Shown here: positions 1,894-5,921 of the stretch, piece by piece
Layout of the letters: the number at the start of each line of letters is the position of its first letter
How positions within the stretch are numbered: position 1 is the first letter of the stretch
Assembly (NCBI GenBank): GCA_030698575.1
Contig: JAUYMQ010000067.1
Span: 1-6,953 of the forward strand
Length of the DNA: 6,953 nt
Origin: Deltaproteobacteria bacterium
GTDB lineage: Bacteria > JAUYMQ01
Direction: 5' to 3'
Position numbers and translations under genes: made by a program
The notes under the pieces: model-generated
The model's input: the letters and a program-made list of their open reading frames with translations, nothing else
What the model was told of the DNA's origin: nothing
Databases searched by the model: none

Positions 1894-1928
1894 TCCGTCC
1901 CCTGCCTGCGCGGGGGACGGAGCTTTTT
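1894..1928 (+). terminator. Rho-independent terminator of the act operon
   Basis: A perfect 9-bp stem (1894-1902 paired with 1913-1921, core CCGTCCCC/GGGGACGG) has a 10-nt loop and is followed two bases later by TTTTT (1924-1928). It lies 31 bases after the actF stop. Stem strength, loop size and T-run all fit an intrinsic terminator on the + strand. The T-run is short, so some read-through into the next gene is possible. Confidence 0.8.
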
Positions 1929-1998
1929 GGGGACGTTCACCATTTTCACCGTCTCCCCACGACCGGGGCGCTGGTCCCGAAAATGGTGAACGTCCCCA
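1928..1998. repeat. 71-bp element with perfect 20-bp inverted repeats (REP/MITE-like)
   Basis: Arms at 1928-1947 and 1979-1998 are exact reverse complements, with core GGGGACGTTCACC on the left and GGTGAACGTCCCC on the right. The 31-bp centre contains smaller dyads (GACC 1961-1964 with GGTC 1973-1976; alternatively CCCC 1955-1958 with GGGG 1965-1968). It abuts the act terminator and ends 50 bp before the next start codon. No T-run follows the right arm, and no target duplication is evident. Its length, perfect symmetry and intergenic site fit a dispersed REP or MITE-type element, perhaps moved in trans by a Y1 transposase. I recall similar GGGGACGTTCACC palindromes scattered in other high-GC genomes, but this is unchecked. 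A regulatory stem-loop or operator is the alternative. Confidence 0.75.
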
Positions 1999-2034
1999 TT
2001 ATCCGGTATCCTCGGTGGAAGGGCGCCAAACGAG

Positions 2035-4088: not shown

Positions 4089-4161
4089 GCACCGGGGCGG
4101 GGCGCGATCGGCCGGCCGCGGTTTTGAGCCCCAACCGCTTGAAACAATGAGGGTTTTCGGG

Positions 4162-4192
4162 TTGACCGGGGTATGCTTTCGGGCTATATGAT
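4162..4192 (+). promoter_or_regulatory. Candidate sigma-70 promoter for the acyl-CoA dehydrogenase gene
   Basis: TTGACC (4162-4167) matches the -35 consensus at five of six bases. TATATG (4185-4190) follows with a 17-bp spacer, or TATGAT (4187-4192, five of six) with 19 bp. The stretch is AT-richer than its surroundings and lies 77 bp ahead of ATG 4269, so a leader of about 70 nt would result. The octamer GGTTGACC that includes the -35 box occurs again at 4236-4243, which may be chance. Confidence 0.5.
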
Positions 4193-4227
4193 GGGCCCTT
4201 TCCGGCTCCCAGACCTTCCAACCGCCG

Positions 4228-4251
4228 GCGCGCCAGGTTGACCCGGCGCGC
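4228..4251 (+). promoter_or_regulatory. Strong GC hairpin in the dehydrogenase leader, just before the ribosome-binding site
   Basis: GCGCGCC (4228-4234) pairs perfectly with GGCGCGC (4245-4251) around a 10-base loop containing GGTTGACC. The same region shows a 9-bp direct repeat, CCGGCGCGC, at 4225 and 4243. The stem ends five bases before AGGA (4257-4260), the likely ribosome-binding site, so it could affect translation or be a protein-binding site. No function is shown. Confidence 0.4.
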
Positions 4252-4268
4252 TCCCCAGGACTGAACCC

Positions 4269-5921
4269 ATGTCGACTGAACCGACCCTGGAACAAGGCAA
4301 GCAGATCGCCGCGGCGCTGCGCGCGTTCACCGACGCCGCGGTGGCCGAGGCGTCCAAGAAAACCGAAGGCGGCAAGCGCATCGATGATCACCAGGTGCAC
4401 GCCGAACGCATAGCGCAACTCGCCACCGAGCTGCGCGCGGTCGAGGAGTTCCTCGCCTACGCCGAGCGGGTCGCCGGTGAAGCGAGCGCCGATCCCCTCA
4501 TCGACAGCATGGTGATCGCCTTTGCGGGAGAGATCGCGGCCAAGAGCCTGGCCAGCGCGAGCGCGGCGCTCGACGACTACGGCATCAGCGAGGACGCGCT
4601 CGGCAAGACGCTCGGCGCGGCGGACGTCCAGAAGCTCGTGCGGGCGGCGATGCATGAGTCGCGCTTCCGCGAGATCGGCCGGAAGGTGGCGGAGCAGGGG
4701 GGTGAGAACAACATCTGGCTGGGCGACGACATCCTGAACGCCACCCGCGATTCGGTGCGAAATTTCGCCCGCAACGAGGTGGCGCCGGGCGCCGAGAAGC
4801 TCCATCGCAATGACGATCTGGTCACCGACGAGTTGATCTCGAAAATGGCCGAGCAGGGCTACTTCGGCCTTTCGATCCCCGAGGCCTGGGGCGGAAGCGA
4901 ATTCGGCAACCAGGCGATGATCATCACGACCGAGGAGCTCTCGGCGGCCTCGCTGGCGGGCGCCGGAAGCCTCATCACGCGGCCCGAAATTCTCGCCAAG
5001 GCGCTGCTTCAGGGCGGGACGGAGGACCAGAAGAAGAAGTGGCTTCCGCCCATCGCCTCCGGCGAGCTGATGGTGGCCGTCGCGGTGACGGAGCCCAATA
5101 TCGGAAGCGACGTGGCGGGCGTGGCCTGCTCGGCCGAGCGCGGCGCGCAGGACGGCGTCGACGGCTGGTTCATCACCGGGCCCAAGGCCTGGTGCACCTT
5201 CGCCGGGCGCGCCAACGTGCTGGCCCTTCTCGTGCGCACCGATCCTGATCGAAAGCTCGGCGCCAAGGGACTCTCGCTGCTGATCGTTCCGAAGGATCCC
5301 TTCACGGGCCACAGTTTCGAGATGAAGCAGCCTGGCGGCGGATCCATGGTGGGCAAGGCAGACGCCACGCCCGGCTACCGCGGCATGCACTCCTACACCC
5401 TGCAGCTCGATCGTTACTTCGTTCCCGCCGAGAATCTTGTGGGCGAGCAGGCGGGCGAGGGGAAGGGCTTTTACCTTCAGATGGCGGGCTTCGCGGCCGG
5501 ACGGTTGCAGACCGGCGGGCGCGCCTGCGGCGTCATGCAGGCGGCGCTGCAAACGACGGCCGCCTACGTGACCTCGCGCGCGCAGTTCGGGAAGCCGCTG
5601 ATCGACTACCAGCTCACTCAGTACAAGCTCGGGCGCATGGCCACGCACCTGAATGCCGCGCGGCAGATCACCTATGCCGCGGCGCGGGTCATGGACGAGA
5701 AGGGGGGCGAGGCCGCGCTGGAGCCGGCGCAGGCCAAGCTCTTCGCGAGCGACACCGCGGTCTGGACGAGCCAGGAAGGGCAGCTGCTGCACGGCGGGTG
5801 GGGCTACGCCGAGGAGTACGCGATCAGCCGGTACGTGGTCGACGCGCAGGTGCTTCCCATTTTCGAGGGCGTGAAGCCCATCCTCGAGCTCAAGGTCATC
5901 GCGCGGAACCTGCTCAGGTAG
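4269..5921 (+). CDS. Acyl-CoA dehydrogenase with N-terminal extension, (2S)-methylsuccinyl-CoA dehydrogenase-like
   Basis: The 550-residue flavoprotein has an acyl-CoA dehydrogenase core from about 150 to the end, after an extra mainly helical domain of roughly 150 residues. Visible core marks are VTEPNIGSD (273-281) at the flavin site, RAQFGKPL (437-444), the HGGWGYAEEY stretch (508-517) and IFEG with Glu533, the expected catalytic base. The extension, the total length, GSLITRPEI (233-241) and GYRGMHSY (369-376) match the pattern I recall for methylsuccinyl-CoA dehydrogenase, which makes mesaconyl-CoA in the ethylmalonyl-CoA pathway of acetate assimilation. No other gene of that pathway (such as crotonyl-CoA carboxylase/reductase) is in the window, so the substrate stays an inference; another branched or dicarboxylic acyl-CoA is possible. 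It is cytoplasmic, and electrons would go to ETF. The segment after the catalytic Glu (GVKPILEL) differs from the usual G-x-x-E-I-Q. ATG 4269 is 8 bases after AGGA. Confidence 0.9.
   Translation: MSTEPTLEQGKQIAAALRAFTDAAVAEASKKTEGGKRIDDHQVHAERIAQLATELRAVEEFLAYAERVAGEASADPLIDSMVIAFAGEIAAKSLASASAALDDYGISEDALGKTLGAADVQKLVRAAMHESRFREIGRKVAEQGGENNIWLGDDILNATRDSVRNFARNEVAPGAEKLHRNDDLVTDELISKMAEQGYFGLSIPEAWGGSEFGNQAMIITTEELSAASLAGAGSLITRPEILAKALLQGGTEDQKKKWLPPIASGELMVAVAVTEPNIGSDVAGVACSAERGAQDGVDGWFITGPKAWCTFAGRANVLALLVRTDPDRKLGAKGLSLLIVPKDPFTGHSFEMKQPGGGSMVGKADATPGYRGMHSYTLQLDRYFVPAENLVGEQAGEGKGFYLQMAGFAAGRLQTGGRACGVMQAALQTTAAYVTSRAQFGKPLIDYQLTQYKLGRMATHLNAARQITYAAARVMDEKGGEAALEPAQAKLFASDTAVWTSQEGQLLHGGWGYAEEYAISRYVVDAQVLPIFEGVKPILELKVIARNLLR

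Follow-up and report, generated by a model that had tools for sequence, protein, structure and literature searches.

The 71-bp palindromic, non-coding unit at positions 1928-1998 of the window (the whole stretch of 6,953 nucleotides that was analysed), directly behind the terminator of an act operon, is very probably a REPIN-like doublet: a non-autonomous element of the terminal-repeat kind associated with TIRYT-class (TnpA-Y1, HUH) transposases. Such a doublet would comprise two hairpin-forming repeats (consensus TAATGGGGACGTTCACCATTTTC) in inverted orientation, separated by about 31 nt of spacer that varies between copies. A Y1 transposase would recognise the hairpins in single-stranded DNA at the replication fork and cut near the GGGG border, and the doublet would be copied or moved into intergenic gaps, with single arms representing decayed doublets. 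For the copy in the window, the point of insertion would have been the T-run of the actF terminator.

Structure of the element

The features that bear on the element and its left-hand neighbour are as follows.

546-1862: actF-like protein; no Pfam match, the name coming from an earlier note and from reading of the sequence
1894-1928, plus strand: intrinsic terminator of the act operon, a 12-pair stem (1894-1921) followed by GCTTTTT, from a terminator scan and the sequence
1928-1947, plus strand: left arm, TGGGGACGTTCACCATTTTC
1948-1978, plus strand: spacer with a small inner stem (CCCC at 1955-1958, GGGG at 1965-1968), unlike the spacers of other copies
1979-1998, minus strand: right arm, inverted
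1999-2003, plus strand: right border flank (ATTATC when position 1998 is included), common to the copy on contig C612 (ATTATCC) and in part to that on C119 (ATTAAT)

A sequence-only reading had described perfect 20-bp inverted arms, starting at the final T of the terminator behind actF, and both observations hold: the arms are 100% complementary across a 31-nt spacer, and the left arm, which abuts the T-run, starts on that T. By simple arithmetic, the chance expectation for a perfect 20-bp repeat at such spacing in 7 kb is about 1e-6. When single-stranded, the element has a folding energy of -27.7 kcal/mol (z = -7.7; 0 shuffles equal to it), and the fold retains a z of -5.8 when wider flanks are included. 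Judged by copy C119 (TAATGGGG.../...CCCCATTA), the complete arm has about 3 additional nt, and in the window the terminator T-run stands in place of this extension of the left arm. The right arm together with the flanking ATT reads AATGGGGACGTTCACCATT on the minus strand (1982-2000) and forms a weak REP-like hairpin. In each arm, a small hairpin can form from AATGG, a G/A mismatch and then a short inner stem; it is repeated among the arms and weak, between 0 and about -4 kcal/mol.

Copies in the same genome

The same reading had proposed a dispersed REP/MITE-type element and had suggested a genome search with the arm, in which a palindrome found only once, and conserved at that locus in relatives, would point to a local regulatory site. 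Rather than being confined to one locus, the arm GGGGACGTTCACCATTTTC is found again at 5-6 further sites in this genome, with unrelated surroundings and differing spacers, and the proposal of a dispersed element is supported. Genome-wide statistics on the arm were obtained by pattern searches. Exact matches to the core GGGGACGTTCACC number five (from two doublets and one single arm), against 0 for its reversed pattern; four further arms carry one or two mismatches, and copy number is low, with about nine good arms (about ten per genome). Matches at three mismatches are mostly like chance (57 in total vs 21 for the reversed pattern), and a candidate arm at C376:4254 was likewise judged to be a chance match.

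C580 (the window): doublet, 69 bp between the GGGG ends
C119:128-198: doublet, 71 bp, directly behind tRNA-Leu
C612:22048-22113: doublet, 66 bp, upstream of an MBL-fold-like gene
C107:1714: single arm, between convergent gene ends
C110:570: single arm
C268:2561: single arm
C565:620-689: possible decayed doublet, its fold no better than shuffles (z -0.6) and counted as a possible remnant only

The doublets are 66-71 bp long, and their spacers have diverged to the point of being unlike each other in sequence. In C612, CACT/AGTG replaces CACC/GGTG in both arms, by which the long hairpin is kept, and in its left arm a G-C pair of the small hairpin has turned to A-T (AATAGGG...CACTATT). With three doublets, this matched change between arms is suggestive and not statistical. 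Recent spread, which had been raised on account of the perfect symmetry, is plausible for the two perfect doublets, if undated. No empty site or movement of the element was seen.

A size of about 70 bp and perfect terminal repeats would also fit a classical MITE derived from a DDE insertion sequence, mobilised by cut-and-paste; the arms would then be the terminal repeats of an insertion sequence that has been lost or was left unassembled. We nevertheless consider this origin improbable: a target-site duplication is absent from the flanks of all three doublets, the doublet spacers are unrelated in sequence, single arms occur alone, and the arm ends match TIRYT-type repeats. REPINs (Bertels and Rainey, 2011, PMC3116915) are inverted doublets of about 70 bp, built of two hairpin-forming repeats with a variable spacer that folds with them into one long hairpin, an arrangement found here along with singlets as likely remnants and a matched change between arms; unlike REPINs, the window family has no GTAG-type tag and very few copies. 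CGTC-tagged REPs, reported with no link to transposases (PMC3733652), resemble the element in that CGTC lies inside the window arm and in forming inverted dimers, but inspection by eye did not match the element to the 8-9 bp stems, 4-5 nt loops or CCA tails described for them.

Genomic neighbourhood

The gap between actF and the TPR gene spans about 185 nt, from the actF stop (1862) to a likely GTG start at 2048 behind GAGAGGAG, as judged by reading of the sequence. This was earlier called the only long non-coding gap after actF; that is correct near actF but not across the window, where a gap of similar length lies at 4089-4268. In the mechanical list of open reading frames, the TPR frame crosses the element and reaches as far back as 1880, an extension that is regarded as chance. 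Further neighbours of the element are the TPR protein itself, an M50 protease with CBS domains, and an acyl-CoA dehydrogenase. At its start, the TPR gene contains a 15-bp tandem repeat (2071-2127, about 3.7 copies) that gives VLCAR-type repeats in an apparent signal peptide. The acyl-CoA dehydrogenase (4269-5921) has a long N-terminal extension and is, we presume, reminiscent of methylsuccinyl-CoA dehydrogenase.

Placement right behind the terminator and a strong fold might be expected of a locally selected regulatory hairpin, serving as punctuation or as an mRNA stabiliser behind actF, a second barrier past the terminator, and other copies also lie at gene ends, including the one behind tRNA-Leu. 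The same sequence is, however, found in unrelated places, one of them in front of a gene, the element hairpin is followed by no T-run, and no Rfam family was found for it. Any regulation may be a side effect and leaves the dispersion unexplained; local selection is a very unlikely origin. Less credible still is a dispersed operator, that is, a site for a dyad-recognising regulator and not a mobile element. Palindromic symmetry and about ten arms per genome would suit it, yet spacing is variable, singlets occur, and the change between the C612 arms is matched to the hairpin; moreover, no promoter-like sites were found near the window copy and the neighbouring genes look functionally unrelated. 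Under the REPIN-like reading, the association with the act operon is probably incidental and any effect of the element on act or TPR genes would be secondary. A stem-loop role in read-through RNA from act into the TPR gene, as earlier envisaged, is possible.

Y1 transposases of the genome and their repeats

The assembly encodes three Y1_Tnp genes. A Y1/REP-associated transposase flanked by the same arms, for which the sequence-only reading had advised looking, is not among them, since 0 of the 3 carry the arm. The assembly yielded no cognate transposase, no RAYT with the same REP and no adjacent RAYT with the arm; because the assembly is 91.6% complete and in 653 contigs, the cognate gene may be missing from it. 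Two TIRYT genes with GGGGTCAG-type terminal repeats are present.

L007, G000:C110:10821-11903: Y1 with a C-terminal HTH, between 34-bp repeats CTTAAATAATGGGGTCAGACCCCTTTATTTAAGC
L008, G000:C244:1-1250: Y1 with Bac_DnaA_C (a C-terminal DnaA-type HTH), with GGGGTCAGGCTTGACTT-type repeats

TIRYTs largely match TnpA-Y1 subclass 2.1, which has C-terminal HTH/DnaA domains (PMC6006769), and the HTH of L007 and the Bac_DnaA_C of L008 are traits of TIRYT/subclass 2.1 (PMC3733652, PMC6006769). The flanking repeats of L008 read GGGGTCAGGC-TTGACTT-TTGACTTGTT. Around a short Y1 gene (L006, 1200-1920, G000:C176), an unrelated repeat of about 50 bp (TTTATCCGTGCCCTAAAGGGCCGGCTCGG...GTCCTGAAGGACG) is present in several copies.

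The core of the L007 repeat, GGGGTCAGACCCC, is itself dispersed at about 25 sites (C25, C169, C447, C498, C605, C622 and others), often in inverted pairs framed by AATAATGGGG...TTTATTT. The window arm has a like frame, with AATAATGGGG (in copy C119), a 5-nt middle, CACC and an A/T-rich end, and differs from the L007 repeat in its middle. A third palindrome, GGGGACTGTCCCC, was observed at about seven sites (C268:285, C401:190, C446:53 and 79, C498:2393, C581:3065, C600:4176). One survey reported that REP-like repeats are absent next to subclass 2.1 genes (PMC6006769); in contrast, the repeat of the TIRYT-like L007 described here is dispersed through the genome in about two dozen hairpin copies.

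The repeats of TIRYTs conform to the consensus GGGGWSAS, and their families are single, dimeric or grouped (Di Nocera et al., 2013, PMC3733652). The window family resembles these in its GGGG[AT]C head, in its dispersed inverted doublets and singlets (3 doublets, 3 singlets and 1 possible decayed doublet), in its low to moderate copy number, in its mostly extragenic position, and in the presence of TIRYT genes in the host genome. It differs in that the resident TIRYTs have GGGGTCAG-type repeats and no cognate gene was found. Within the arm GGGGACGT, GGGGAC fits positions 1-6 of the consensus, while GT departs from AS at positions 7 and 8. Although the element looks to work like a REPIN/TIRYT-type repeat, its formal membership is incomplete, because no transposase bearing the repeat was detected in the assembly and GGGGACGT is off GGGGWSAS at two positions. 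The GGGGACGTTCACC doublets may have no transposase of their own and might be mobilised in trans by the GGGGTCAG-type TIRYT of this genome, or they might have persisted beyond the loss of their transposase as a useful gene-end hairpin, a scenario that we deem rather unlikely.

Related Y1 loci

Starting from the L007 protein, 90 related Y1 (HUH) loci were examined, with a flanking inverted repeat counted at a score of at least 13. Such repeats flank 70 of the 90 loci, vs 7 in a direct-repeat control and 0 in a shuffled control, and the repeats of 51 loci contain GGGGTC. Three of the surveyed TIRYT genes carry (G)GGGACGTTGTTA / (G)GGGACGTT, the start of which, GGGGACGTT, is common to the arm.

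L243 and L244 (one genus): repeats GGGGACGTTGTTA
L252 (another genus): (G)GGGACGTTGTTA at one flank, GGGGACGTTGTTA at the opposite flank

Five more copies of this string are found elsewhere in one genome (G115). Because these three TIRYT genes share the start GGGGACGTT, there is an existing TIRYT subtype whose terminal repeat opens as the window arm does. The Y1/RAYT link that was proposed from the sequence alone thus stands at the level of class, related Y1 genes elsewhere being flanked by GGGG[AT]C inverted repeats, but does not extend to the three Y1 genes found in this genome, none of which has these arms.

Distribution and implications

An exact scan with an 18-base stretch of the arm across about 85,000 species, a set from which near relatives may be missing, detected no such repeat family elsewhere, which suggests that the arm family is lineage-specific. 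Among named genomes, the arm 18-mer gave 12 single matches, many of them in Massilia, and no repeat family; viral contigs gave one match, and arm matches across about 190 unrelated genomes resemble chance background. Close relatives were sought by arm, RNase R and ActF and none was found in the genome set searched, the best identities being about 42-45% for ActF and 47% for RNase R; an RNase R tree gave no placement of the genome. The exact arm strings did not occur in the set of papers searched. From these sequence comparisons, the arm family appears to be confined to this lineage.

The element type itself is ordinary and well documented; what is added is a lineage-specific repeat family in the little-studied TIRYT class. 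These transposases are commonly surrounded by terminal repeats of the GGGG[T/A]C type, among which there is a GGGGACGTT subtype. The findings also advise caution, in that palindromes beside terminators should not be taken as gene-specific regulators.
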